A DNA stretch of 24,571 bases from positions 1 to 24,571 of IMG/VR virus record IMGVR_UViG_3300025369_000057. The stretch is one strand, 5' to 3'. Both the position numbers and the translations under genes were made by a program. Shown here one piece after another: positions 2,156-17,125 of this stretch (position 1 is the stretch's first letter; the number at the start of each line of letters is the position of its first letter). The stretch is from a virus. The notes below the pieces were generated by a model. The model saw only the letters and a program-made list of their open reading frames with translations, was not told the origin of the DNA and did no database searches.

Positions 2156-4303
2156 ATGCCATTACAAAAGTTACAGTTTAGACCGGGTGTTAATAGAGAA
2201 GGTACTGATTACTCTAACGAGGGTGGTTGGTATGACTGTGACAAAATTCGTTTTCGTTCTGGGTTTCCTGAAAAGATCGGTGGTTGGGGGCAAGTAAGTC
2301 CTAATCAATATCTAGGTGTGTGCCGTAACTTATGGAATTGGGTAGATTTAACAGGCGATAATTTTTTAGGTGCCGGCACTAATATTAAGTATTATATTTA
2401 TCAAGGCGGTACTTACAACGACATAACACCATATATAGTGACGGGCTCTTCTGTAACTATAACCACAAATGGCACAACAACAGTAACAATTACAGATGGT
2501 GCTTACAATCCAAGTGTCGGCGATTACATAGTTTTTGGTGGTTCATATACTGTAGGTGGGTATGTCTTTACAGGTGAGTATGTAGTTAAAACCGTACCTT
2601 CTTCTACAACATATACGATCACGGCAGCAACAGCACCAAGTGCAGCTGGACCAACTGCGGCGGTAGTTAACTACGAATATCCTATAGGTAATGAAGTTTA
2701 TACGGTAGGTATTGGTTGGGGTGCGGGTCCGTGGGGCGGTATTTCTAGTCCTGTTTATGTAACTTTAGGTTCAAATCCATTTGCAGCAACATCAGGAAGT
2801 TCAGTTGTAACAGTTACGCAAACAGCGCATGGTATGTCTAACGGAACTTATGTAGCGTTTACTGGGGCTACAACTTTTGCGGGCATACCTGCTTCTATGC
2901 TTAATACGACCTATGTTATATCAGGTGTAACAACTAACACTTATCAGATTACCTTACCAAGCTCTTTTACTGCAAGTTCTACTACATCTGGTGGTGGTTC
3001 TGCGGTTATTGTTTTAGAAGGTCTTGGAACTCATGGTTGGGGCTTAGGTTATACCTCTGGAGTTGGAGTTCAATTACGTCTTTGGTCATCAGATAACTAT
3101 GGGCAAGATTTAGCGCTTGCACCTCGTGGTGGTCCTATTTATTATTGGCAAGACCAAAACGGTGTTGGTACTAGAGCGGTATCATTATCTTATTTAGCAA
3201 ACTTCTATGGCTATAGTAGTGCTGCTGTTCCTGTACAAACACTTCAGGTTTTAAGTGCGCCGATTCAACAATTTTTAATTGCTATGGGATCTAACTCATA
3301 TTCAGGTGGTGGGTTTAATCCTTTGCTTGTGCGTTGGTCAGATCAAGCAAATCAATATCAATGGGTGCCATCAGTAACTAATCAGTCAGGTGAATTTGCT
3401 TTATCAAACGGTTCGCAGATTATTGGGGCAAGAACAACCCGTCAAGAGATTCTTATTTGGACAGATTCAGCCTTATACTCCATGCAGTATTTAGGCGCGC
3501 CGTATGTTTGGGGCTTCCAAGTTTTAATGGATAATATCTCCATCATGTCACCTAACGCTATGATTACAGTAAACAACGTGACTTACTGGATGGGCGCTAA
3601 TAAGTTCTATATTTATTCAGGTACAGTACAAACCCTACCTTGTGCAGTACGTCAATATGTGTTTGATAATTTAAATCCAGACCAGTCTTTCCAAGTGTTT
3701 GCTGGCGCTAATGAAGGATATAATGAAGTTTGGTGGTTCTACTGCTCACAAAATTCTACAAAAATAGACAGTTATGTCATATATAATTACTTAGATCAAG
3801 TATGGTATTACGGTACGATGGGTCGCACCGCGTGGATTCAAAATGGTATTGAGCAGTATCCGATTGCCGCCGATTACAACGGGCGTTTGTTAAACCATGA
3901 ATTTGGAGTTGACGATAATGCTACCTCAGTTACCTTGCCTATTGATGCTTATGTGCAGTCCTCTGATTTTGATATTGGTGATGGACATAATTTTGGTTTT
4001 GTGTGGAGAATATTGCCGGACGTTAACTTTAATGGATCTACTGTCAATGCTCCTTCCTGTACGATGACGGTTAAACCAAGACAAAACTCAGGAACACCTT
4101 ACGGGCAAGCAGATAATCCACAAGTTGTTAGTGGAAATAACTATGCTAAATCAAGTGTTTATAACGTACAGCAGTTTACAGGACAGGTTTATACACGTTT
4201 GCGTGGTCGTCAAATGGCATTTAGAATTGAGTCAAATACAGTTGGAGTTGCTTGGCAATTAGGTAGCCCAAGAATAGATATCAGACCGGATGGGCGTAGA
4301 TGA
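2156..4303 (+). CDS. P22 gp10-like packaged-DNA stabilisation / tail hub protein
   Basis: A 715-residue virion protein. The N-terminal stretch (about residues 7-44; FRPGVNREGTDYSNEGG, then DKIRFRSGFPEKIGGW) is the conserved opening of phage proteins annotated as P22 gp10-like stabilisation proteins, which plug the portal after packaging. The rest is beta-rich with many W, Y and G residues, fitting a propeller-like fold. Two Thr/Val/Ser-rich segments, about 97-172 and 205-287, look like small beta inserts of the kind often labelled FCCH-like in phage proteins (VTVTQTAHGMSNGTYVAF in the second). It has several cysteines, unlike the six genes after it. AGGG precedes the ATG by six bases, and the stop overlaps the next start (ATGA). 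The gp10 role is from family resemblance. Confidence 0.7.
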   Translation: MPLQKLQFRPGVNREGTDYSNEGGWYDCDKIRFRSGFPEKIGGWGQVSPNQYLGVCRNLWNWVDLTGDNFLGAGTNIKYYIYQGGTYNDITPYIVTGSSVTITTNGTTTVTITDGAYNPSVGDYIVFGGSYTVGGYVFTGEYVVKTVPSSTTYTITAATAPSAAGPTAAVVNYEYPIGNEVYTVGIGWGAGPWGGISSPVYVTLGSNPFAATSGSSVVTVTQTAHGMSNGTYVAFTGATTFAGIPASMLNTTYVISGVTTNTYQITLPSSFTASSTTSGGGSAVIVLEGLGTHGWGLGYTSGVGVQLRLWSSDNYGQDLALAPRGGPIYYWQDQNGVGTRAVSLSYLANFYGYSSAAVPVQTLQVLSAPIQQFLIAMGSNSYSGGGFNPLLVRWSDQANQYQWVPSVTNQSGEFALSNGSQIIGARTTRQEILIWTDSALYSMQYLGAPYVWGFQVLMDNISIMSPNAMITVNNVTYWMGANKFYIYSGTVQTLPCAVRQYVFDNLNPDQSFQVFAGANEGYNEVWWFYCSQNSTKIDSYVIYNYLDQVWYYGTMGRTAWIQNGIEQYPIAADYNGRLLNHEFGVDDNATSVTLPIDAYVQSSDFDIGDGHNFGFVWRILPDVNFNGSTVNAPSCTMTVKPRQNSGTPYGQADNPQVVSGNNYAKSSVYNVQQFTGQVYTRLRGRQMAFRIESNTVGVAWQLGSPRIDIRPDGRR

Positions 4304-4593
4304 CAACTCCATTAAAAACCCTAACGCTACTGCCACCAAAAGCACCAAACTTACCTGTTGCACCGGTAGACTATACACAGCAGTATCAAGATCAAATTCT
4401 GAATGTTTTGCGTCTTTATTTTAATCAGCTTGATAATTTTTCAAGTGGGCTAACGGTTCCTCCAAGTGGAACAACCTCACAAAGACCAACAGTTAAATTA
4501 CAAATTGGTCAATTTTTTTATGATACGACGCTAGGTATACCTATTTGGTGGAGCGGGAGTGCGTGGAAAAATGCTTCCGGAACGGCAGTTTAA
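4300..4593 (+). CDS. Small virion protein with tail-tip-type C-terminus
   Basis: A 97-residue protein whose start overlaps the gp10-like stop by four bases, implying coupled translation. The first half contains a predicted amphipathic helix (DYTQQYQDQILNVLRLYFNQ). The C-terminal part, GQFFYDTTLGIPIWWSGSAW followed by a short Gly/Ala tail, matches a motif seen at the ends of many phage tail and neck proteins. No cysteine is present. Its close coupling to the portal-plug gene suggests a minor structural or assembly protein at the capsid vertex. The precise role is unknown to me. Confidence 0.75.
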   Translation: MTTPLKTLTLLPPKAPNLPVAPVDYTQQYQDQILNVLRLYFNQLDNFSSGLTVPPSGTTSQRPTVKLQIGQFFYDTTLGIPIWWSGSAWKNASGTAV

Positions 4594-4628
4594 ATGTTAT
4601 TATATAGTAAATTGAAAGAGGTCTATTT

Positions 4629-6116
4629 ATGAGTTTACAACATGTAGCTAAACATCTTGAGGATCACGGACGTGGACCGGATAGTAAACTCGTACATATG
4701 TCAAATAAAGAGCTGGCGGGTTTACAAAATCTAGCTCAAGCGCACGGTAAAAGTCTTACTTTAAATCCACAAACGGGACTTCCTGAAGCTGGTGTTTTAG
4801 ATGCTTTTTTACCTGCGGCTCTTGGTATTGGCACTGCTATTTTTGCTCCTGCACTTTTACCTTTTGTAGCTGGCGCTGGTGGTTTGTATGACTATTCTAA
4901 AACTGGTGATGTAGGTAAAGGCTTGATGACTGGTTTAAGTATTTATAGTGGCGGTAATTTAGCAGAAAGTTTAGCTGCATCAGGGGCAGCATCGGGAGCA
5001 GCAGCAAATACAGCTGCTCAATTGGGTGTAGAAGGTGCTTCAGCAGCGCCGGGATCTCAAGCCGCACTATTAGCAGAACAAAATGCAGGTATGGGAGATG
5101 CTGGGTTACAAAGTGTTAGAAGTGCCGCATCAACTGCTGAAGGAGTAGGACAACAAGCAGCTATCCCAAGTAATGCTGCTAATATGGCTCAAGGGTTTTC
5201 AAATGTAACAGCATCTCCTAGCGCAGCAACTGATTTTGCTAAAGCTAATTGGAAATCTTTAGCTGGCGTAGCAGTACCAGCGTTGTTAGCGCAACCACCC
5301 AATTCAGTAGGTGCTATCCCCGGTCAAACACCCGACACAGGTTTTAACGCAACTAGGTTAGACCCTAACTACCATCCATATCAACCAGCGCAGCCATCAC
5401 CTGCGTATCAAGCACAATATAGAAACTATGTTCAAAATCCTTATACTGCTGCTACTGGCGGTATTGTTGCTTTAGCTGGTGGCGGTATGGCTATGGGTGG
5501 TCAGCCCGGTCAAATGTATCCAATGAGTCAACAAGAACATACTAACTTTATGGATCCGACTCAGTTGCCTGCAAGCGCTATGGCAGTAAGAGAATTTGAA
5601 CCAGCCACAAACCCAATGACAGGCGATATGACTCAGGCTATGGCTAGTGGCGGAAGCGCTAAATCTAAAAAACCTTCATACACAAACGCAGCAAGTTTAG
5701 CAGCTATGTCTCCATGGGATGCTTCAAAAGCACAATTAAATAACGCAATGTATCAAGCACAAACTCCTGTAGGAGTAGCTCAAGGACCATCTGTTGCTGG
5801 CTTAGGTAATCTTAATTTAGCGCATGGGGGTGAGACATATAATTTAGGTTCTTACTCAGATGGCGGCAGATTGTTAAAAGGTCCGGGCGATGGCATGAGT
5901 GACAATATACCTGCTAAAATTGGTAAACATCAACCAGCTAGATTAGCTGAAGGTGAATTTGTAGTTCCTGCTGATGTTGTTAGCCATTTGGGTAATGGGT
6001 CTACTGATGCTGGCGCTAAGCGTCTATACGCTATGATGGACAAAGTACGTAAGGCGAGAACAGGAAATCCGAAACAAGGTAAACAAATTAAAGCAGAAAA
6101 GTATTTGCCAACATGA
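4629..6116 (+). CDS. Virion protein with conserved N- and C-terminal modules, probable internal/ejection protein
   Basis: A 495-residue protein of a type common in podophage virion modules but without an assigned activity. The N-terminus (residues 1-50) begins MSLQHVAKHLEDHGRG and continues with a short charged helical domain. Residues 55-85 are hydrophobic and alanine/glycine rich, enough for one or two membrane-interacting helices. The middle is low-complexity Ala, Gly, Gln and Pro. The C-terminus (about 418-480) has a conserved module with GPGDGMSDNIPAKIG, then ARLAEGEFVVPADVV and a GSTDAGAKRLY helix. There is no cysteine. A strong AAAGAGG site lies seven bases before the ATG, and the stop overlaps the next gene by four bases. 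An ejection role is inferred from composition, order and the hydrophobic segment. Confidence 0.75.
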   Translation: MSLQHVAKHLEDHGRGPDSKLVHMSNKELAGLQNLAQAHGKSLTLNPQTGLPEAGVLDAFLPAALGIGTAIFAPALLPFVAGAGGLYDYSKTGDVGKGLMTGLSIYSGGNLAESLAASGAASGAAANTAAQLGVEGASAAPGSQAALLAEQNAGMGDAGLQSVRSAASTAEGVGQQAAIPSNAANMAQGFSNVTASPSAATDFAKANWKSLAGVAVPALLAQPPNSVGAIPGQTPDTGFNATRLDPNYHPYQPAQPSPAYQAQYRNYVQNPYTAATGGIVALAGGGMAMGGQPGQMYPMSQQEHTNFMDPTQLPASAMAVREFEPATNPMTGDMTQAMASGGSAKSKKPSYTNAASLAAMSPWDASKAQLNNAMYQAQTPVGVAQGPSVAGLGNLNLAHGGETYNLGSYSDGGRLLKGPGDGMSDNIPAKIGKHQPARLAEGEFVVPADVVSHLGNGSTDAGAKRLYAMMDKVRKARTGNPKQGKQIKAEKYLPT

Positions 6117-6520
6117 TCAAAGTTCAACCTGTAAATGTAGAATATATTACACAAATTTGGTCAGCGGTTGCTTCGTTTATTGATCGTGCTTTAGAACATA
6201 CGGATGATTATACGACTGACCAAGTTAAAGTTTTTTTGACTACAGGTTCTTGGCTTTTGTTGGTGGCAGTAGATGATTTACAACAGATTCATGGAGCAGC
6301 TACAGTAGCTTTTTCTAACGGCGCAAATCATAGAACAGCTACTATAACTACTTTAGGCGGTAGAAATGTTGTAAACAATAATGTTTTTGAGCAAGTGTTA
6401 ACAATTTTACGCAGAATGGGTGCAACAAGAGTGCAGGTATTTACGAGAGACGCAGCTATTAGGCTGTATGAAAAGGTTAAGCTTGAAAAGAAGGCTACAT
6501 TAATGGAGATTAAATTATGA
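6113..6520 (+). CDS. GNAT-like (acetyltransferase fold) virion-module protein
   Basis: A 135-residue protein resembling the short GNAT-fold proteins found among structural genes of podophages. The pattern is a helical N-terminus, a beta strand in SWLLLVAV, strands in GAATVAF and TATITTLGG, then an acceptor helix (FEQVLTILRRMG), a strand (RVQVFTR) and RLYEKV, as at the end of a GNAT domain. No clear acetyl-CoA loop (Q/RxxGxG/A) is visible, so it may have kept only the fold. Its start and stop each overlap a neighbour by four bases (ATGA), giving a coupled trio with the genes on either side. It contains no cysteine. Enzymatic activity is doubtful. Confidence 0.6.
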   Translation: MIKVQPVNVEYITQIWSAVASFIDRALEHTDDYTTDQVKVFLTTGSWLLLVAVDDLQQIHGAATVAFSNGANHRTATITTLGGRNVVNNNVFEQVLTILRRMGATRVQVFTRDAAIRLYEKVKLEKKATLMEIKL

Positions 6521-7830
6521 GCGGCGGCGGAGGAAGTGCACCAGCACCAACAAATACTACCAGTACGGTACAGCAAACCAATTTACCAACGTATGCTCAG
6601 CCATATGTAGAGAACATGATGAGTGCTGCGCAGCAGCAAGTATTTCAGCCGACAACAGACGCTAGCGGTAATACTACATATACAACTACTCAAGCGTATC
6701 AACCTTATAGTAATAACCCATCCGATTACGTTGCAGGGTTTTCCCCTATGCAACAACAAGCATTTACTGGTGCAGCTAACCTTCAAACACCCGGTCAATA
6801 TGGGACTGCAACCGATTTAGCTACAACTTCTGGTTTAGGCGCTCTTGGTACTACTGGTCAAGCTGGTATGTATGGGGGCATGGGTGCAAGAGCGGGGCAA
6901 CAAAATGCTAGTTTATCTAATGTGTATGGCGGCGCTGGCGCAATGGCTGGTCAACAGGCTGCTGGGTTATCAAATGCATATGGTGGTTTAGGTGCGATGG
7001 CTGGTCAACAAGGTGCAAATATTGGGCAAAGTTTAGGACAAATGTCACAAGACCCTAATGCTGTTCAAGGATACATGAACCCATATTTACAAGCTAGTTT
7101 AAATCCACAACTTGCCGAAGTTCAAAGACAGTATGATATTACTGGGCAAGGGGAACAAAGCGCAGCTACTCAATCAGGTGCTTTTGGTGGTTCCCGTGAA
7201 GCATTAATGGCTGCTGAAAATCAGCGTAATGCCGGTCTTGCTAAGAATCAAATTATTGGTCAAGGATACAATACTGCGTTTCAAAATGCTCAACAACAAA
7301 TGCAGGCAGCAAATCAAGCAGCTTTGGCAGGAAACGCTCAAGCTTTACAAGGTTATGGTATGGGCTTACAAGGCGCAGGTCAAGCTGGTTCACAAGCTAT
7401 GCAAGGTTACGGCATGGGTTTACAAGGTGCTGGTCAAGCAGGTCAGTTAGGTATACAAGGCGCTCAAACAGGGCTACAAGGTGTGGGTGCACAGCAAGCT
7501 GGGTACGGACAAGCTGGACAAGCAGCAAGTAATCTTGCAAACATAGGCGGGCAACAGTTAGGCGCTCAACAAAATATTATTAATCAGCAGAGTCAAATGG
7601 GTGCACAGCAACAGAACCAACAGCAGAATATTATCAATCAGGCTGTTCAAAACTATGCTACAGCACAACAGTATCCATATATGCAGTTGGGTTTCTTATC
7701 AAACCTATTACACGGCTTGCCGTTACAGTCAGCTACAACACAAACATATCAAGCAAACCCAACAACTTCACAACAGTTAATGGGTCTTGGGTTAGGCGCA
7801 GCCGGCGCATATAAAGCATTTGGGGGCTAA
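6517..7830 (+). CDS. Gln/Ala/Gly-rich repeat-containing internal virion protein
   Basis: A 437-residue low-complexity protein that starts with a flexible Gly/Ser/Pro/Thr head and continues as Ala-, Gln- and Gly-rich helix-forming sequence. The recognisable block is around AFGGSREALMAAENQRNAGL near the middle, which I recall from virion proteins of other podophages. Two separate arrays of 18-residue repeats lie at 6874-7035 and 7348-7509 (listed separately). There is no cysteine, little charge and no membrane span apart from short apolar stretches near the end. GGAG precedes the ATG by eight bases, and the start overlaps the GNAT-like gene's stop. A role as a capsid-internal or ejected protein, or as an assembly adaptor, is inferred from composition and position. 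Confidence 0.7.
   Translation: MSGGGGSAPAPTNTTSTVQQTNLPTYAQPYVENMMSAAQQQVFQPTTDASGNTTYTTTQAYQPYSNNPSDYVAGFSPMQQQAFTGAANLQTPGQYGTATDLATTSGLGALGTTGQAGMYGGMGARAGQQNASLSNVYGGAGAMAGQQAAGLSNAYGGLGAMAGQQGANIGQSLGQMSQDPNAVQGYMNPYLQASLNPQLAEVQRQYDITGQGEQSAATQSGAFGGSREALMAAENQRNAGLAKNQIIGQGYNTAFQNAQQQMQAANQAALAGNAQALQGYGMGLQGAGQAGSQAMQGYGMGLQGAGQAGQLGIQGAQTGLQGVGAQQAGYGQAGQAASNLANIGGQQLGAQQNIINQQSQMGAQQQNQQQNIINQAVQNYATAQQYPYMQLGFLSNLLHGLPLQSATTQTYQANPTTSQQLMGLGLGAAGAYKAFGG
6874..7035 (+). repeat. Three tandem 54-bp units (18 residues each)
   Basis: Three in-frame units of 18 codons each in the 437-residue virion protein. They begin GGMGARAGQQ, GGAGAMAGQQ and GGLGAMAGQQ and end with SLSNVY, GLSNAY and NIGQSL respectively. 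The period is exact with no indels, and the last unit is the most diverged. Confidence 0.85.
7348..7509 (+). repeat. Second array of 54-bp units (18 residues each)
   Basis: Two nearly identical units starting QGYGMGLQGAGQAG are followed by a third, degenerate unit starting QGAQTGLQGVG. The period is again 18 residues. Synonymous differences between the first two units show the duplication is not brand new. Confidence 0.85.
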
Positions 7831-7833
7831 TCT

Positions 7834-9444
7834 ATGATAAATACACAACAAGCTGGACTAGGCGCTGCTTTTGGAGCACCGCAACAAAAAGGACAAGATT
7901 TATCTAATATGACTGCTATGATGGACATGTTAAAGAATGTCCCTGACCAAACTCTTGCTGACGTGTTAGCAGGAAAGCCAGTTACTTTAGATGTGCATGG
8001 TTCACCTATTCAGGTTCCTCAATTTGCGGCTATGTTAGCTGCACAAGGTCGTCAAGAATTACGCACAGCTATGGCTGGGCAACAAGGGCAACAACCATCA
8101 ATTAAAGATCAGTTATTATCAGCTGAACAACAAGCTGCTCATCCGCAACAGATGATAGTACCGCCTCAAGCTATGGGTCAACAGCCTATGGGTCAACCAT
8201 CGGCACAAAACGCCCCTGCTCCTCAAGCTGGCTTAGATCAAATTCCTGCACCTAATATGCAGTCTATGCGTGCTGGTGGTATTACAGGCGAAGAAGATGT
8301 TCCTAGATATAATGGGCAAACTAATAATCAAGTGATTGTTGACCCTATGGGTGGGTTTAGTGGTTATAGTAGCGATCTTAGCCAAGAAGATGAAGCTGAT
8401 TTGGCTAACAAAGCAGCGTATAGGCAGGCTAGGCAGGCTATATCTAATGTTGCTAAAGCTGCGGAAGTAAAAAAACAAACTGAAGCTAATTTAAAAGGCA
8501 CAAATTTAGCCGCGCCTTCTTTAACAAATACGCCAACACCTGCGCCTGTAGCAACGGCACAAACAAACACATCTAATGCTGGATTAGACGCAGCTTTAAA
8601 AAATAGGACACCTTCAACAGTACCTTCAACAGTACCTTTAACAGCACCTTTAACAGCACCAGTTACAAACCCAAATGCTAAGTTGCCTCCGGGGTCTATG
8701 CCGCCAGCAGATGTTATGGATCAAATGCGTAATGATGATATGTATAACAGCATTAACAGTACCATAAGTGATTTGCAGAATAAACATAGTAAATTCCAAG
8801 ATATGTTAGATGAACACGCTAAAGCAGAACCTGAGCGTAAAAAAGAAATTGAAGATGTTAGAAATCAAGGCATTGGTCAGTACATGATGAACATGGGTGC
8901 TGCGCTATTGGCTAATCCGCAGTTTGGTAAAGCTGTTCAAGAAGGTAACACATCAGGATTAGCCGCGCTTAACTTAAGCCGTAAAGAAGCTAAAGAATTG
9001 CAAAAAGATTATCGTGACTATAACTTTAATTTACAAAAAGCTGCGGTTGCAGAAGAACAAGGCAATCAAGAACTTGTAGAAAAGTATCAAGGTTTGGCTC
9101 AAAAATTCCAAAATGATATTGGCACGCTTGCAGTTCATAAGCGTTTGGCAGCTGTTGCTGAAGAAAAAGTTCCTGCTGAAATTTCGGAACTTAAGGCTAG
9201 AGCAAACTACTACAATGAAATGCCCGGCGTTATGGCAGCTAAAGGCGTTGGTGCAAATGCTAAAATGTCACAAATTACTATTCAGCAAGCTATCACTGAT
9301 TTTAAAGGGTTAGACCCAAAAACAAAACGAGAGTTAGAACCTTTTGGGGTAACTAACGCTATGACATATCAACAATATATAAATAGTGGTGGACAGCCTC
9401 TTACTTATAGTACAATTGATAAAAACGCAGTTGTTCGTCAATAA
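7834..9444 (+). CDS. Internal virion protein with helical C-terminal half
   Basis: A 536-residue protein without a recognised catalytic domain. Residues 1-145 are Gln, Met, Ala and Pro rich. A block near 147-200 (MRAGGITGEEDVPRYN, then DPMGGFSGY) leads into a charged helix. A Thr/Pro linker at about 230-285 contains a 12-bp tandem repeat. The C-terminal half, from about 295, is alpha-helical and charged, with AALLANPQFGKAVQEGN and long K/E/Q heptad-like stretches suggesting a coiled coil. There is no cysteine. The gene lies four bases after the previous stop and directly before the giant virion gene, an order seen for ejection-protein sets in podophages. Function is inferred from this context. 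Confidence 0.72.
   Translation: MINTQQAGLGAAFGAPQQKGQDLSNMTAMMDMLKNVPDQTLADVLAGKPVTLDVHGSPIQVPQFAAMLAAQGRQELRTAMAGQQGQQPSIKDQLLSAEQQAAHPQQMIVPPQAMGQQPMGQPSAQNAPAPQAGLDQIPAPNMQSMRAGGITGEEDVPRYNGQTNNQVIVDPMGGFSGYSSDLSQEDEADLANKAAYRQARQAISNVAKAAEVKKQTEANLKGTNLAAPSLTNTPTPAPVATAQTNTSNAGLDAALKNRTPSTVPSTVPLTAPLTAPVTNPNAKLPPGSMPPADVMDQMRNDDMYNSINSTISDLQNKHSKFQDMLDEHAKAEPERKKEIEDVRNQGIGQYMMNMGAALLANPQFGKAVQEGNTSGLAALNLSRKEAKELQKDYRDYNFNLQKAAVAEEQGNQELVEKYQGLAQKFQNDIGTLAVHKRLAAVAEEKVPAEISELKARANYYNEMPGVMAAKGVGANAKMSQITIQQAITDFKGLDPKTKRELEPFGVTNAMTYQQYINSGGQPLTYSTIDKNAVVRQ
8611..8658 (+). repeat. Four tandem 12-bp units in a Thr/Pro linker
   Basis: Two identical copies of ccttcaacagta are followed by two identical copies of cctttaacagca, encoding PSTV twice and then PLTA twice. 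The pairing of identical copies suggests two recent slippage duplications within an already duplicated linker. Confidence 0.9.
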
Positions 9445-9478
9445 CTAGCCTCGTTAGCTAAACAATTTTGTAAAGTAT

Positions 9479-12400
9479 ATGGCATATATAAAGCTACCTG
9501 ATAACAGCTACTTTAAAGTACCAGAAGGGGCTACGCCACAACAAGCTTTTGCTTTAGCTCAAGAAAAATACCCCACCGCTTTTAATCCACTTGAAAAACC
9601 AGACACAGGATTTACCGGCGCTTTTAAATCAGGACTTGAAGGTTTAAAAGGTGATATTGCTACCTTAGCCGGTAGAACTGGTTTAATGGATACTGCTGAA
9701 GCTGAGAAATACGCTAAAGCGCAAGAAGAAAAACAAGAACAGGTTTTTGCCCCAACAACAAAAGGTTGGTTAGAGTCTCCATGGGAGAAGCTAAAAGAAA
9801 CAGCTGGTAGTTCTATACCTTATATGGCAGCGCCTATTGTGGCTGGTTTTGGTGCTGAGGCTGCTGGATTGGGGGCTTTGGGGGCAGGCGCAGCTGCGGC
9901 TGTACCTTCGTTCTTACAATTTACTGGCGCTAACTTAGGCACTCAAATGAAAGGCGCACCGGAAGAAGGTGTTGCTGGTAAAGACTTAAAAGAAACTAGT
10001 TTATTTAATGCCGCTGTTGCAGCTGTACCACAAACAGCTTTAGATATTGTTGGTCTTAAATACGTTCCCGGCGTACAAAAAATATTTAAATCTGTTGGAA
10101 AAGACTTAACAGAAGAAGCCGCTAAAAAAATTGTTGATCAAGGTATTCGCAAAACAGCAGGGCAGTTTATTGCTGGCGGCGCTAAAGTTGCTGGTATAGA
10201 AGGTGCTACAGAGGCTGGGCAAGATTGGTTTGATCGTTTACAAGCAGGATTAAGTTTAACAAGTCCTCAAGCAAGAGAACAATATTTAGATAGTTTTGTT
10301 GGTGGCGCTGCTTTAGGCGGTGTATTTTCGCCTTTTGATGTGGCAGGTAAACGGGCTGAAGCTAGAGATGTAATACAAAAAGCTGAAGATAAAAGAACAG
10401 AAGAAGCATTTAAAAAGCAACAAGAAGAACAAGCGCTTAAAGACAAAGAACGTCAAACTCCTGAATATCACAACACGTTAATAAGCGATAGTAATGAACT
10501 TGAGTTGCAGATAGCTAGTTTAAAAGATTTAGCAAAAGATAAAGATTTAGATAAAGCTACAAAAAAAGAAACTAACGCTAAGATTAAACAATTAGAAAAC
10601 CAACTTAATGATAAAGTTATTGAGTTGCGTGAACTTGCGCCTGAACGTGTTAAAGAGATACCAACTGCTAAACTTACGTTAGATGAATTACAACAACGTA
10701 AAGCTGAAAAACTTCAAGAAGAAGAGAATAAAAAACAACAAGAGTTTGAAGAAGCGCAACAAAAAACAGGACAATTATTTGGCAAACCGCCAAAAGCAGG
10801 TTTAGCGCCAGTATCAACTTTAACTGCTGCGGAAGAAACACAACAACGCACAGCTTTAGAAAAATCTTTACCTGAAGATCAAAAATTTTTAACTGAAATA
10901 GAAAATAAGTTAAACGAAGCTATTAAAACAGGCGATACCAAAACATATACGCAGTTGTCAAAACAACATGAAGAATTAACTAATAAAATTGCGGATGATG
11001 AAAAAGCGCTTAAAAGATTGGGTGGAACGCCTAACACAGCTGATAAAACAAAAGCTGATTTAGAAAAACAACTTAAAAGATTACAAACCGAGTTTTCTAA
11101 GTATGATATAGAAAGCGGTGCTTATGACAAGAAAAAACTTGATAGTATTGTTAAGCGTATAGAAGAGACGCAAAGTAACTTAAAAGCTTTTGAAAAGATG
11201 CCGACTGAACAAACGTCTTTGTTTGAAGGTGAGAAAGAATTAACCTACCCTGAATACGAAAAACGTGTTGCAGAAGAAAAAGCACAAAAAGAGCCAATCA
11301 ATGAAGAGCTTCTTAAACAAGAAGAAGCACAAAACGAAATTGAAGAGTCTAAAGGTATTGCAGATTCTTACTTTAAAAAACCAACATTAAAAGAACTTAA
11401 AGATAAGCTTGATGCTCTTAAAAAAGAAAAAGCGACTTTAGAAAAAATGGGTGCCAATATTCCTTGGTACGCTAAAGATAGACCCGATGAATTGCTTGGA
11501 GAAATTGCTGAAGCTGAAGATAGATATAAGCATGAGTATGCCAAACAAGTTACTGGCGAAAAAGTAACACCTGAAAAATACTTAGAACGTAAACAACAAG
11601 AATCTCTCGATGCTTTACAAACGCATTTGGATACGTTAGAAGAAAACCCTGATGATGCTAAGGCAGAACAAAAAGCTAACGCAGCGGGTAGAAACTATAT
11701 ACTTCACGCTATCGAAGAGATTGATGCAATACGTAAAAAGAATGGGCAGCAGGTATTAAATGATGGCGAAGTGCTAATTTTAGTTCAAGAACTTCGTGAC
11801 AAAATAAACAATGTTATTAAAAATAAAGATGCTGCGGCATTAGAATATGCTGAACTGCCTACTAAAGTTAATTTAAAAGGCGCTGGTGTTGGTGAAGAAG
11901 CTACTAAAGTAGGTAAGCTAAAAGGGGAGTTTAGATCTAAGTACCGCAAAGAAAATAAGCTTGAAAACTTAAGCCCTCTTGAAAAAGAACTGCAAAATAT
12001 TAAAAACAAATATGGCGTTGCTGAAGAAGAATTTGCTTTAAAGATACAGGATGGCAGACCAAAAAAAGAAGAAGCGCCTACAGATGTTTCTAAAGTTAGA
12101 AAAACAGGATCTTACCCAACAGTTGATACAACGACTAACGCAATAATAGAAACTCCTGTATATGAAGTTTCAGAACCCAGCGCTTTAACACCTCGTGAAA
12201 AAGAAGCTGGTAAAAAAGTTGATGTGTCTAACATAGGCAATATTAATCAAGGGGATTTGTTTTCTGATAAAGCTTTATCTGAATTTCAAACAGCTACAGT
12301 TCGTGCAACGCCTAAAAATTTTATGCGTTTAGTAGCAATTCAGTCTCAAAAATTTAAGTTTGCTAAACAAGAAATAGAAAAAAAATTACAAGAAATAAAA

Positions 12401-15400
12401 GATAGAGCAGAAGCAAACAAAAAGAAAAAAACAATAAACCGCGATCTTTTAGATGATCTTGCCGCGCAAAGATCTTTTATTGAAGACTTAATCAATGTTG
12501 ACGAAAGTGTTAGCAATCTTAGAAATAATGCAGAACAGCTGTGGAATATGCGCAGTAAAGTTGTTGAATCTATTAAAGAAGTAGATAAACTTAAAAAAGA
12601 AATTAAAAAAACGCAAAAAGAAATAAACAATTTAGTAAAAGAACAGGCAGAAATACAGCCACAAAATCCTGAAGAAAAAATAAGCGGTAATGAGCGTGTT
12701 AAAGATCTTAATAAACAGATAGAAGAAAAGCGTAAAAAGATAGAAACGCTTACTAAAAGTCAAAATAAAAAAGAAACGGTAGATGAAAAAGAAACGATAG
12801 ATGAAAAAGAAACGATAGACCTACGAAAAGTTTTAAAACATATAGATGCAACTGCCGATGAAAGACTTAAAGTAATAGATGCTTTGCACGAACGCGCAAA
12901 CCAGTTAATAAATGCTAATGTTGAATTAGAAATAGGTATTCTTAACGGTCTTGAAGAAAAATATAAAAAAGCTGTAGCCGCTGGACAAGCTGATTCAGTA
13001 GAACTTAGTAAGAGTTTAGACGCAGAACGTGCTAAACAAGCAAAACTTAGCGCTGAAGTTTTAAATCTTTTAGAAGCCCAAGTAGGTGAAAAACGTAAAG
13101 CGGAACAACAACGGCTAGAAGCCCTAGAATCTTTGCCGGGGGTTAGAAGAACTGTTGTTATAAACACGCAGTTAACTGTTGCTCAAGAAAGTTTAGTTGA
13201 TACTAACAAAGAACTTAAAGCAAAAAAAGAACAACTTGAAAAGTTAACAGAAGGTACTACAGAGTACAACAAGGTTGCTAGAGAAATAGCTAAATTAAGA
13301 GCAGATAAAATAGCGCAGTTGTCTCCAATACAACAAAAGCTTACTCAAACACTAGAGCCGCTAACTAAAGAAGAACAAGCGGCTAAAGTAAAAAAAGAAA
13401 CTATTGAAGGCGCTAAACAGATGCAAGCTGTTAGAAATCTTGCGCAAAAACAACTTACTGTTGAAGAAACAGAAGCATTAATTAAAAAATATAAAATACA
13501 AGCGGAGTTAAATACTTACAAAGCAAAAGAAGCAAAAACAAAAGCAGAAGCTAACAAATTTAACAATTTGGCAAAGAAACAAAATAATTCAGCTAAATAT
13601 TTACAAAAAAAATTAGATGAAAAATTAGCAAACAAACGCCTTGAAGCGCAGGGATTTATTGATAAAAGTAAACCAACACCGCCTAAAATGAAAACAGGCG
13701 TTAAAGCGGCAAATAAAAAAGTTAAAAAAGTTTTTAAAGATGTTGAACAAGAAGCTAGGGATATTGGTGTATCTAGACAAGATTTTGAAGCGGTTGAATC
13801 AGGTTTATTTTTTGGTAAACCCAATATTCATTTTCGTATTGAGCCTGCACATGGCGGTGTAGGTATTAGTCAAGATGAAGCTAATAAAGTTATTAGCAAA
13901 ATTAAAGTACCTAAAGGTTTAAATATAACGGTTCTTAGTAAGTTGTCAGGAAGTCTTAAAGATAGAATTGAAGAGTTAGGGTATAACCCTGATGAAGTAC
14001 GTGGCGGTGTTTTGCCTGATGGCTCTGTATTTATTGTTGCAGAAAACCACGCTGACGTAAAAGATTTACAACGTACGATGGCGCACGAAATTACTGGTCA
14101 CTTGGGTATTGAAACTACTATTGGTGAAGAAGGTATGAAAACTTTAGCCAATAAAGTTGAAAAACAAGAAGGCGGGATAATGGGTTTAGCTGATAAGTTA
14201 GAAGTTGGCGAAGATGCACAAGCTGCATACGCTGCTGCTAAACGTAATGGCAAAACAAATGAAGAAGCTAACTTGGCGGCAATGCGTGAATTGATTGCCC
14301 ATACTGAAGAGGCTCGACCAGACAAAGGGTTTTTAGCTAAAGCCAACGAATTTATTAAAGCTATGGTAGGCGCTGTGCGTGCTGCATTAAGAAAAAGGGG
14401 TGTTGATTTAGATATATCTACTAGCGACATTTACAAGATGTTAAGAGATGCGCGCAAAGAGTTTAAAGAAATGGCACCCGGCGCTTATAAAAATGCAGAT
14501 GGAGATATTTTATTTAACGTACATCCTACTTACAACAGTAAATTTGCCGACGTAGCTAAAGAAACAGAGGCTATGGTTGCTATGCCAAAAAGCATATTAA
14601 GTAGTGTGCGCGCTAATAGTTCAGGACTTGCTTGGAGAACTAAACTTATTGACCGATTTGCTCCAGTAGAAAAAGTTGCTGAAAAGATGAAAGATTCTTT
14701 AAAAGCCACGCAGCTTATGTATTTTTTACGTATGCACGATCAACGTATGACTTGGGTTGGCGAAATTACATCTAGAGGTCCTATTGATTTAGTAGAAAAA
14801 ACACGTAAAGATGGCACTAAAGAAATATTAATTGAGTCACAAGAAGGCGCTAGCTTGAAAAAAATGGCAGAGGCTTTGCGTGGCGCAAATGTAGGAAACC
14901 ACGAAGCGGCAGTTGAAATGTTTACTAAATATTTAGCCGCTATTCGTGCTAAAAATAAAGGCATTAACGCTTTAGATTTTAGTGGTAATGTTACACCTGA
15001 AATGTTAACAAATGTGTTAAATGCGGTTAGTTCTGATGCTAAGACTAAAGCTGCGTTTGAGAAAGCTGCGGATATTTACAATGAGTATAACAAAGGTTTA
15101 ATTAATTTTGCGGTTAAAACAGGGGCTTTAAATAAAGATGCCGCCGCAAAAATGTTAGCTGAAAAAGATTACGTGCCTTTCTATCGTGTTGATAAAAATA
15201 CTAATGAAGTATTTTTAGATATTAAAGGTGCGCCATCAGTAAAAATTGGTAACTTAAAAGATCAACCTTACTTACATGAATTAGTTGGTGGCGATAAGCC
15301 TATTATGGATGTGTTTACTAGTGCGTTACAGAACACTTCTATGCTTACAGATATGGCGTTACGTAACCTAGCTGCTCGCAATACGGCTTATGGTTTAAGT

Positions 15401-17125
15401 GAACTTGGTTATTTAAACGTAAAATCTGATAAAAAAAATGACAACGGTATTTACAAAGGTCCGGGTCCTGCTAGACCAACAGTTATTCATTTTAAACGAG
15501 ACGGCGATTTATATTGGGCTGAAGTAAATTCTGAAAATGCAGGAATACCATCTGAATTATTAGTTAAAGGTTTAGAAGGCGTTAATACATCTCTACCTAC
15601 TATTATTAAGACAATGAACATACCATCTAATTTCTTGCGTAAATGGGTTGTAAGAAATCCTGCGTATGCGGCTCGTCAAATTGTACGTGATTCTTTAAGC
15701 GCTTATATTTTAACGGGTGCTAATTCAACGCCTATTATGTCTTCACTAAAAGAAACAGGCAAAATGTTAACTGGTAGAAGTGAAACAGAAAAAGAATTAC
15801 AACGTCGTGGTATTTTAGGTGGGCAAGTTTTAACAGGTACGTCTGAAGATCAACGTAAGATTATGGCGGATCTTGCCAAAGGTAAAGAAGGTTTTAATAT
15901 AAACACGCTTATATCTAGTTTAGATAGTCTTGCAGTTAAAGGCGATGCGTCTACACGTGTTGCTTTATATAATGATTTTATTAGACAAGGTCTGTCTGAC
16001 ATGGAAGCAACTCTTGCAACGCTAGAATCTATGAACTTTAGTAAGCGTGGTACATCACCAAGTTTATTTATGGCTACACAAGTTATTCCTTTTATGAACG
16101 CACAGATTCAGGGTCTTGATGTACTATATAAAGCGTTTACAGGTAAGATGCCATTTGAGCAAAAGCTTCAAGTAAGAAAAAAATTAATGCAGCGTGGTTT
16201 AACTCTTGCCGCTACTAGTATGGCTTACGCTATGATGATGAGTGACGACGAGTCTTATTTAAATGCTACGGATGAAGAGCGCTTAAATAACTGGTTTATT
16301 AAAGTTCCGTTTTCTGATGAACCGTTAAGAGTGCCTATTCCATTTGAAATTGGTTTAATATTTAAAGCCGTACCCGAAGCTTTAGTTAATGCTTCAAATA
16401 AAAATCTTGATTCCGCAGATACTAATAAGGCTTTACTTGTTCAATTTGCTAAACAGATACCCGGCGCTAGTTCATATGGATTACCGCAAGCATTTAAACC
16501 TGCATTAGAAGCTGCATTAAATTATTCATTCTATACAGATGCAGCTATTGATTCTCAGCGTTTGCAAGGATTTGATCCTGCTGAAAGATATGGCGACAGA
16601 ACAACTGAGATAGCTAAACAAATTGGCAAAGTATTTAATATATCGCCTAATAGACTTGAGTATTTAATAAGAGGTTATACAGGTAGTTTGCCGTTAGCTA
16701 TTGCATCACTTACTAACCCGATGTTTAAATCAAAAGAATTTGCAGAAGTTGAAGCGCCTTCTAGAAGATTATCAGAAACCCCTGTTGTTGGCGCTTTCTT
16801 CCAGCCTATTGATGGTCGACGCTTAATTGATAAAGCATATAAAGATATGGAAGATATTAGACGCACGGCAGAAACATACAAGAAGTATGAAGACGAAGGG
16901 CGTGTAAAAGAAGCCGATGCTCTATTAGATGCTAAAGCTGACATAATTGGTTTAGAGAGTGCGGCTGGTACATTCCGCAAACAAATGGGTGATTTAACTC
17001 AAGAAGAGCGTGATGTGAGAAGCAATCCTAAGATGTCGCCACAAGAAAAACGTAGACGTTTGGATGAAATAAGACAAGATAAAATTGCTTTAGCTAAAGA
17101 CCTTTCCGCTAGCGCACGCGGGTAA
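9479..17125 (+). CDS. Giant internal virion/ejection protein with peptidase-like motif and LPD38-like region
   Basis: A 2548-residue polyvalent-type protein. The N-terminus (1-36, beginning MAYIKLPDNSYFKVPEGA) matches openings I recall from phage polyvalent proteins. Residues about 112-160 are hydrophobic and Ala/Gly rich. Residues about 290-1430 are K/E/Q-rich coiled coil. A domain at about 1430-1620 carries LPDGSVFIVAENHAD, then HEITGH with H1536, E1537 and H1541 (HExxGH, as in M49-type peptidases), and a possible third ligand E1604 in MRELIAH. Residues about 2040-2290 (VVRNPAYAARQIVRDSLSAY, then MNFSKRG and IPFMNAQIQG) look like large polyvalent protein domain 38. I found no cysteine in the entire protein. 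In Bcep22-like phages such giants are packaged and delivered with the DNA. That role here is inference. No strong ribosome-binding site precedes the ATG. Confidence 0.8.
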   Translation: MAYIKLPDNSYFKVPEGATPQQAFALAQEKYPTAFNPLEKPDTGFTGAFKSGLEGLKGDIATLAGRTGLMDTAEAEKYAKAQEEKQEQVFAPTTKGWLESPWEKLKETAGSSIPYMAAPIVAGFGAEAAGLGALGAGAAAAVPSFLQFTGANLGTQMKGAPEEGVAGKDLKETSLFNAAVAAVPQTALDIVGLKYVPGVQKIFKSVGKDLTEEAAKKIVDQGIRKTAGQFIAGGAKVAGIEGATEAGQDWFDRLQAGLSLTSPQAREQYLDSFVGGAALGGVFSPFDVAGKRAEARDVIQKAEDKRTEEAFKKQQEEQALKDKERQTPEYHNTLISDSNELELQIASLKDLAKDKDLDKATKKETNAKIKQLENQLNDKVIELRELAPERVKEIPTAKLTLDELQQRKAEKLQEEENKKQQEFEEAQQKTGQLFGKPPKAGLAPVSTLTAAEETQQRTALEKSLPEDQKFLTEIENKLNEAIKTGDTKTYTQLSKQHEELTNKIADDEKALKRLGGTPNTADKTKADLEKQLKRLQTEFSKYDIESGAYDKKKLDSIVKRIEETQSNLKAFEKMPTEQTSLFEGEKELTYPEYEKRVAEEKAQKEPINEELLKQEEAQNEIEESKGIADSYFKKPTLKELKDKLDALKKEKATLEKMGANIPWYAKDRPDELLGEIAEAEDRYKHEYAKQVTGEKVTPEKYLERKQQESLDALQTHLDTLEENPDDAKAEQKANAAGRNYILHAIEEIDAIRKKNGQQVLNDGEVLILVQELRDKINNVIKNKDAAALEYAELPTKVNLKGAGVGEEATKVGKLKGEFRSKYRKENKLENLSPLEKELQNIKNKYGVAEEEFALKIQDGRPKKEEAPTDVSKVRKTGSYPTVDTTTNAIIETPVYEVSEPSALTPREKEAGKKVDVSNIGNINQGDLFSDKALSEFQTATVRATPKNFMRLVAIQSQKFKFAKQEIEKKLQEIKDRAEANKKKKTINRDLLDDLAAQRSFIEDLINVDESVSNLRNNAEQLWNMRSKVVESIKEVDKLKKEIKKTQKEINNLVKEQAEIQPQNPEEKISGNERVKDLNKQIEEKRKKIETLTKSQNKKETVDEKETIDEKETIDLRKVLKHIDATADERLKVIDALHERANQLINANVELEIGILNGLEEKYKKAVAAGQADSVELSKSLDAERAKQAKLSAEVLNLLEAQVGEKRKAEQQRLEALESLPGVRRTVVINTQLTVAQESLVDTNKELKAKKEQLEKLTEGTTEYNKVAREIAKLRADKIAQLSPIQQKLTQTLEPLTKEEQAAKVKKETIEGAKQMQAVRNLAQKQLTVEETEALIKKYKIQAELNTYKAKEAKTKAEANKFNNLAKKQNNSAKYLQKKLDEKLANKRLEAQGFIDKSKPTPPKMKTGVKAANKKVKKVFKDVEQEARDIGVSRQDFEAVESGLFFGKPNIHFRIEPAHGGVGISQDEANKVISKIKVPKGLNITVLSKLSGSLKDRIEELGYNPDEVRGGVLPDGSVFIVAENHADVKDLQRTMAHEITGHLGIETTIGEEGMKTLANKVEKQEGGIMGLADKLEVGEDAQAAYAAAKRNGKTNEEANLAAMRELIAHTEEARPDKGFLAKANEFIKAMVGAVRAALRKRGVDLDISTSDIYKMLRDARKEFKEMAPGAYKNADGDILFNVHPTYNSKFADVAKETEAMVAMPKSILSSVRANSSGLAWRTKLIDRFAPVEKVAEKMKDSLKATQLMYFLRMHDQRMTWVGEITSRGPIDLVEKTRKDGTKEILIESQEGASLKKMAEALRGANVGNHEAAVEMFTKYLAAIRAKNKGINALDFSGNVTPEMLTNVLNAVSSDAKTKAAFEKAADIYNEYNKGLINFAVKTGALNKDAAAKMLAEKDYVPFYRVDKNTNEVFLDIKGAPSVKIGNLKDQPYLHELVGGDKPIMDVFTSALQNTSMLTDMALRNLAARNTAYGLSELGYLNVKSDKKNDNGIYKGPGPARPTVIHFKRDGDLYWAEVNSENAGIPSELLVKGLEGVNTSLPTIIKTMNIPSNFLRKWVVRNPAYAARQIVRDSLSAYILTGANSTPIMSSLKETGKMLTGRSETEKELQRRGILGGQVLTGTSEDQRKIMADLAKGKEGFNINTLISSLDSLAVKGDASTRVALYNDFIRQGLSDMEATLATLESMNFSKRGTSPSLFMATQVIPFMNAQIQGLDVLYKAFTGKMPFEQKLQVRKKLMQRGLTLAATSMAYAMMMSDDESYLNATDEERLNNWFIKVPFSDEPLRVPIPFEIGLIFKAVPEALVNASNKNLDSADTNKALLVQFAKQIPGASSYGLPQAFKPALEAALNYSFYTDAAIDSQRLQGFDPAERYGDRTTEIAKQIGKVFNISPNRLEYLIRGYTGSLPLAIASLTNPMFKSKEFAEVEAPSRRLSETPVVGAFFQPIDGRRLIDKAYKDMEDIRRTAETYKKYEDEGRVKEADALLDAKADIIGLESAAGTFRKQMGDLTQEERDVRSNPKMSPQEKRRRLDEIRQDKIALAKDLSASARG
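12773..12820 (+). repeat. 18-bp tandem repeat in the coiled-coil region
   Basis: Two full copies of an 18-bp unit differing at one base, plus a 12-bp partial third copy, encoding ETVDEK, ETIDEK and ETID. It lies in the charged coiled coil of the giant protein and looks like recent replication slippage. Confidence 0.9.

Follow-up and report, generated by a model that had tools for sequence, protein, structure and literature searches.

Cysteine-free genes downstream of the tail genes of a viral contig and their likeness to podoviral ejection proteins

Cysteine in the ejection proteins of described phages

The absence of cysteine (Cys) from proteins injected by phages has been reported for the N4-type virion RNA polymerases (vRNAPs; PMC3715699, PMC3915230, PMC2784036) and for the internal virion proteins of Zobellviridae (PMC10747016). 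In the N4-type enzymes, it has been attributed either to passage through the tail or to the avoidance of disulfides in the periplasm (PMC3715699, PMC3915230, PMC2784036). The vRNAP of Schitoviridae, N4 gp50, is an internal virion protein injected with the DNA and lacks Cys in all of its 3,500 residues. Cysteine is not mentioned in a review of ejection proteins, nor in the structure papers on phiM1 and T7, and no statement of a cassette-wide rule, of its exceptions or of a contrast between tail types was found in the openly licensed literature. Hence, the cassette-wide rule and the natural experiment provided by the DarB-like proteins (see below) seem to be new.

For comparison, the proteins known or annotated as ejected were collected from T7, P22, Sf6, SP6, phiKMV, P-SSP7, epsilon15 and N4. 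Together they contain 8 Cys in 18,155 residues (0.044%) vs. 166 in 22,148 (0.75%) in the portal, capsid, tail and fibre proteins of the same eight phages (P 2e-33). The ejection proteins of epsilon15 (gp14–gp17 by the gene order of the record; one review numbers them differently) account for 5 Cys in 2,574 aa. The other seven phages have 3 Cys in approximately 15,600 aa, all of them in short first proteins: T7 gp14, Sf6 gp7 and P-SSP7 033. The giant proteins of Palmer, PTXU04, CF418P1, VvAW1, BcepIL02, PEp14 and Pag-Yong1 are Cys-free, and the virion RNA polymerase subunits of crAss001 are strongly depleted (1, 1 and 3 Cys in 2,341, 1,349 and 2,412 aa, respectively). As a separate observation, the scaffolding proteins of six of seven phages (P22, T7, SP6, phiKMV, P-SSP7, PaP3) are Cys-free, that of Sf6 having 3 Cys; since scaffolding proteins are never ejected into the host, this counts against an ejection-based explanation.

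Cysteine depletion in the gene block and its relatives

The window, i.e., the whole 24,571-nucleotide stretch of the IMG/VR virus record IMGVR_UViG_3300025369_000057, harbors six closely packed Cys-free genes, all on the plus strand, directly after a gene encoding a gp10-like protein:

2156–4303, plus strand: gp10-like head-closure/tail protein, 715 aa, 5 Cys (phrog_3287, E 5e-68); upstream boundary of the block
4300–4593, plus strand: tail/virion structural protein, 97 aa, 0 Cys (phrog_20787, virion structural; tail-fibre C-terminal domain)
4629–6116, plus strand: protein A, 495 aa, 0 Cys; putative ejection protein, homologue in 23 of 23 contigs
6113–6520, plus strand: GNAT-fold protein, 135 aa, 0 Cys (structure model and PDB GNAT matches)
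6517–7830, plus strand: protein B, 437 aa, 0 Cys, rich in Gly, Gln and Ala; putative ejection protein (weak match to phrog_4287)
7834–9444, plus strand: protein C, 536 aa, 0 Cys; putative ejection protein (Cys-free large genes in this slot in nine contigs)
9479–17125, plus strand: giant polyvalent-type protein, 2,548 aa, 0 Cys; putative ejection protein (LPD38)
14084–14101, plus strand: zincin-like metallopeptidase motif HEITGH (HExxGH type), residues 1536–1541 of the giant
16247–16789, plus strand: LPD38 domain (PF18857), residues 2257–2437 of the giant

The translated open reading frames (97 + 495 + 135 + 437 + 536 + 2548 = 4,248 aa) contain no Cys at all, exactly as the preliminary description of this DNA had stated, and the rest of the window encodes 39 Cys in 3,612 residues (1.08%). 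The position-specific base composition of the six genes leads one to expect 43.5 Cys (probability of none, P0, ~1e-19), ruling out a base-composition artefact; at the rate of the rest of the window, the probability of none is ~1e-20. The flanks, described initially as Cys-bearing, are so in part: the gp10-like protein (5 Cys in 715 aa), the endolysin (3 in 201) and the 972-aa minus-strand protein (15 Cys) contain the residue, but minus-strand proteins of 88, 136 and 81 aa do not. Two short upstream reading frames are likewise Cys-free, so a count of zero also occurs outside the block.

To evaluate the genes singly, Cys counts were modelled by Poisson regression from the other 19 amino acids, with 430 further proteins from the window and its relatives as the training set. 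The regression predicts 21.6 Cys in the giant and 0.9–3.2 in each of the other five proteins. The giant is the only one of the six that is strongly significant by itself (P0 4e-10 from the regression, 1.5e-7 at the rate of head/tail genes); the genes for the 97-aa (P0 0.42–0.55), 135-aa (0.28–0.44) and 437-aa proteins (0.38 from the regression, 0.07 at the head/tail rate) are not significant. The statistical weight within this genome is, therefore, that of the giant, and the membership of the small genes has to come from the relatives.

The gp10-like protein used as a query retrieved 80 viral contigs; 22 usable relatives and the window make up the 23 contigs counted. The same query in a scan of prokaryote genomes returned two metagenome-assembled contigs with no clear host. 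A gene order of gp10-like, small tail gene, A, GNAT, B, (C) and giant recurs in the relatives. As in the window, the block follows closely on the tail tube/head-closure genes and ends in the largest protein, which is the slot of ejection proteins. By profile search, none of the 23 contigs lacks A or B.

The homologues of A contain 3 Cys in 13,555 aa (81 expected from composition) and the 23 homologues of B 3 in 15,288 (60 expected), while the large genes in the C slot of nine contigs contain none in 5,140 aa (31 expected). The 23 giants have 9 Cys in 51,652 aa where 420 would be expected, kinship being uncorrected and some giants being cut by contig ends (in G011, the contig ends early and the gene counted as the giant is a smaller neighbour). 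In total, the four families contain 15 Cys in 85,635 residues (0.018%) vs. approximately 590 expected, again without correction for kinship. The depletion is restricted to this class of genes: the gp10-like homologues have 100 Cys in 16,662 aa (0.60%) and are Cys-free in none of the 23 contigs, the upstream head/tail genes 363 in 59,062 aa (0.62%) and the downstream replication genes 649 in 44,862 aa (1.45%). It also recurs in many lineages. Clustering at 50% coverage and 30% identity divides the giants into 13 groups with little mutual similarity, so the replication is partly independent and does not reflect one inherited accident. Five giants of the clade carry 1–5 Cys each; together with the 5 Cys of epsilon15, they indicate that the ban on Cys is not absolute. 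One of them (contig G001, that of L002) has 5 Cys, three of which are clustered at residues 1244–1254, TCPKSAICEGLC; judging from its sequence, this cluster resembles a module for metal binding or catalysis inserted into a giant that is otherwise almost devoid of Cys.

Could the depletion be a by-product of composition, Cys being absent from elongated, helical or low-complexity phage proteins in the same way as Trp and not itself under selection? B and C indeed have no Trp, approximately one Cys is expected in B alone, and scaffolding proteins are Cys-free as well. Still, the regression on the other 19 residues predicts the ~590 Cys mentioned above where 15 are observed, the 25 proteins closest to the giant in composition contain 1.2% Cys, and podoviral DarB-like giants have 154 Trp yet no Cys. 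The regression rules this very improbable explanation out.

The relatives support A, B and C as parts of the Cys-free pattern and take this support away from the GNAT-fold protein. Overall, we consider it probable (about 0.6) that A, B, C and the giant are podovirus-like ejection proteins purged of Cys mainly via oxidation outside the cytoplasm, and that the GNAT-fold protein is not ejected. Selection on a functional group, for example an ejected set, had been suggested from this genome alone, and the near absence of Cys from these families in 23 contigs, and from the ejection proteins of eight classical podoviruses, supports selection against Cys on such a group, most likely the ejection set. 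The sharp boundary described at 4300 is partly accidental: the functional one would lie at 4629, with the GNAT gene (6113–6520) as an interloper. The 97-aa protein in between is uninformative on Cys because it is short; the gene following the gp10-like one in the relatives has 3 Cys in 4,342 aa. By its profile match, the 97-aa protein would be a tail component, and a domain of it is shared by several further genes of these phages that resemble tail-fibre genes.

The set resembles T7 gp14/gp15/gp16 and P22 gp7/gp20/gp16, which are likewise large, Cys-free or nearly so and encoded after the tail genes. It differs from them by an additional gene and by the far greater size of its last protein, with no detectable similarity beyond a weak match of B to phrog_4287, ‘DNA ejection protein’ (E 0.009); profile comparison of A, C and the giant with known ejection proteins revealed none. 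Protein A features an almost invariant C-terminal motif at ~5880–6059, GDGMSDxIPAxI..QPARLADGEFVVPADVVSHLGNGSTDAGAK (also written GDGMSDxIPAxI...VVPADVVSHLGNGSTDAGAK), that has no match in Pfam or PHROGs. A similar order of genes is that of the Bcep22-like podoviruses BcepIL02 and JC1: a Cys-bearing head-closure protein, a short Cys-free one, a Cys-bearing GNAT protein, Cys-free virion proteins and a Cys-free giant. No pairwise similarity was found between the head-closure protein of BcepIL02 (gp63) and the gp10-like protein of the window, so the synteny is positional only.

The GNAT-fold protein and the giant

The AlphaFold model of the 135-aa protein (pLDDT 91) matches GNAT folds in the PDB at E 2.6e-8, and a profile match to 1vkc was obtained at E 1e-5. 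The protein has no direct match in Pfam, whose GNAT models match a few of its homologues only. The model and the profile match assign the protein confidently to the GNAT fold. The homologues contain 22 Cys in 2,621 aa (0.84%), with 0–4 in each and at least one in 10 of 19; one contig (G018, that of L078) carries two GNAT-like genes side by side, the first of these types encoding 2 Cys and its neighbour being Cys-free. The equivalents matched by position, T7 gp13, P22 gp14, Sf6 gp14, P-SSP7 032, epsilon15 gp13 and BcepIL02 gp65, have 2–4 Cys each; T7 gp13 and epsilon15 gp13 share phrog_308, and P22 gp14 belongs to another PHROG.

In CsCl-purified JC1 virions, gp64, gp67, gp68 and gp69 were detected by proteomics, and neither the acetyltransferase gp63 nor the PAPS reductase gp65 was among the proteins identified (PMC9144972). 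Non-detection of a small protein does not, however, equal absence. The BcepIL02 counterparts of the four detected proteins have no Cys, and those of gp63 and gp65 have 3 and 5. The JC1 data support a split of Cys-free virion proteins from their Cys-bearing neighbours (PMC9144972). It was proposed in the preliminary description that the lack of Cys would place the GNAT-like protein in the ejection set. A single set of all six genes, the 97-aa one included, is suggested by their co-linearity and common lack of Cys in this genome, but is quite improbable: homologues of A, B, C and the giant depart from the ordinary frequency of Cys, while those of the GNAT-fold protein do not, and together with the JC1 proteomics they led us to reject the latter as a member. 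Likely, its lack of Cys here is due to chance, and the protein, encoded between A and B, would have an assembly or accessory role without being ejected.

In the giant, LPD38 is recognized at 97.7 bits (cut-off 27; E 1e-27), and an LPD domain within a giant, multidomain phage or plasmid protein is the hallmark of polyvalent proteins. These are proposed to travel with the DNA of phages or plasmids and to act against the defences of the host. LPD38 is also present in the giant of VvAW1 (gp01). The giant of BcepIL02 is DarB-like, with a methylase and a helicase, unlike that of the window, where neither domain was found. HExxH or HExxGH motifs occur in 20 of the 23 giants despite their little overall similarity, the exceptions being two from early-ending contigs and that of G016. 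This suggests a metallopeptidase among the giants, and an ejected protease is a reasonable guess for the activity of the window giant.

In its size, position and lack of Cys, the giant recalls N4 gp50, and in StenR_269 the absence of Cys has served as an argument for a vRNAP (PMC10747016). However, Pfam recognizes LPD38 alone, no sequence match to solved polymerases in the PDB was obtained, the giant carries a zincin motif, and the ban on Cys covers at least four neighbouring genes. Since the lack of Cys is generic to podoviral ejection proteins, it is not diagnostic of a polymerase, and a vRNAP, with no support from the Pfam and PDB sequence comparisons, is hardly credible here. Calling a vRNAP from the absence of Cys, as done in PMC10747016, is accordingly unsafe.

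Delivery route and the loss of cysteine

In the reading we prefer, the window would belong to a podovirus-like phage, and A (4629–6116), B (6517–7830), C (7834–9444) and the giant (9479–17125) would be packaged in the head as internal virion proteins. They would exit via the portal and tail, either ahead of the DNA or together with it, and at least some part of them would stay in the cell envelope or pass across it. Purifying selection would then remove their cysteines. The main reason, we think, is that these long chains are still unfolded when they appear outside the reducing cytoplasm; their thiols may there become oxidized or wrongly disulfide-linked, which would block refolding or onward translocation.

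Portal threading, the cause put forward initially, offers another possible reason: disulfides formed within or between chains in the virion would jam the narrow portal/tail channel for unfolded chains, whatever compartment they reach later. The same sequence facts fit it, partial unfolding of T7 gp16 for exit is the accepted picture (PMC8954989), and threading has been proposed for N4-like vRNAPs (PMC3915230). The tape measure protein H of lambda has 0 Cys in 853 aa, and the giant of the Bacillus podovirus Palmer (1,678 aa), whose Gram-positive host has no Gram-negative periplasm, is Cys-free as well, so oxidation, if it is the cause, is not special to that periplasm. Threading is weakened by ejected head proteins of contractile phages, which pass the tail tube yet keep Cys: P1 DarB 9, D6 6, PHB04 3, T4 Alt 3 and phiKZ gp178 5 (and gp180 2), the small T4 IPII and IPIII having none. 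We consider threading unlikely, though still a serious candidate, and favor, without proof, oxidation outside the cytoplasm.

The evidence closest to an experiment comes from the DarB-like methylase-helicases. Those of BcepIL02 and of VvAW1 and PEp14, which we take to be podoviruses, have 0 Cys and 154 Trp in 13,221 aa vs. 18 Cys in 6,630 aa in those delivered by the contractile P1, the presumably contractile D6 and PHB04, a myovirus by name. The Fisher test (P 3e-9) overstates the difference, as residues are taken as independent. The sample of contractile phages is small: P1 and D6 are relatives of each other, PHB04 has 0.14% Cys, and the Cys content of these proteins still lies below average. 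A protein delivered by a contractile tail travels through the tube but, in the general view, does not enter the periplasm. Hence, the contrast would speak for exposure to the envelope rather than for threading through the tube alone. Packaging in the head and a presumed entry into the cell have been described for P1 DarB (PMC9024508), and the Bcep22 group is podoviral (PMC9144972).

A near-universal rule, i.e., that proteins pushed by short-tailed phages into the envelope are purged of Cys whatever their fold or activity, and that contractile-delivered homologues are not, is a conjecture to which we give even odds. If true, Cys content alone would tell ejected phage proteins and their route from sequence. 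Ejection proteins evolve so quickly that most are listed as hypothetical proteins; a run of large Cys-free genes following those of the tail would be a cheap, composition-controlled marker, setting them apart from non-ejected neighbours such as the GNAT-fold protein. The DarB contrast also turns the old remark on N4 into a testable question of how podoviral proteins cross the envelope.

The contrast is also seen within BLAST-aligned stretches of DarB, where P1 has 3 Cys and the podoviral homologues none. Two of the podoviral DarB-like proteins, encoded at L173 6700–20703 and L174 6913–21657, reach 4,667 and 4,914 aa with 0 Cys.
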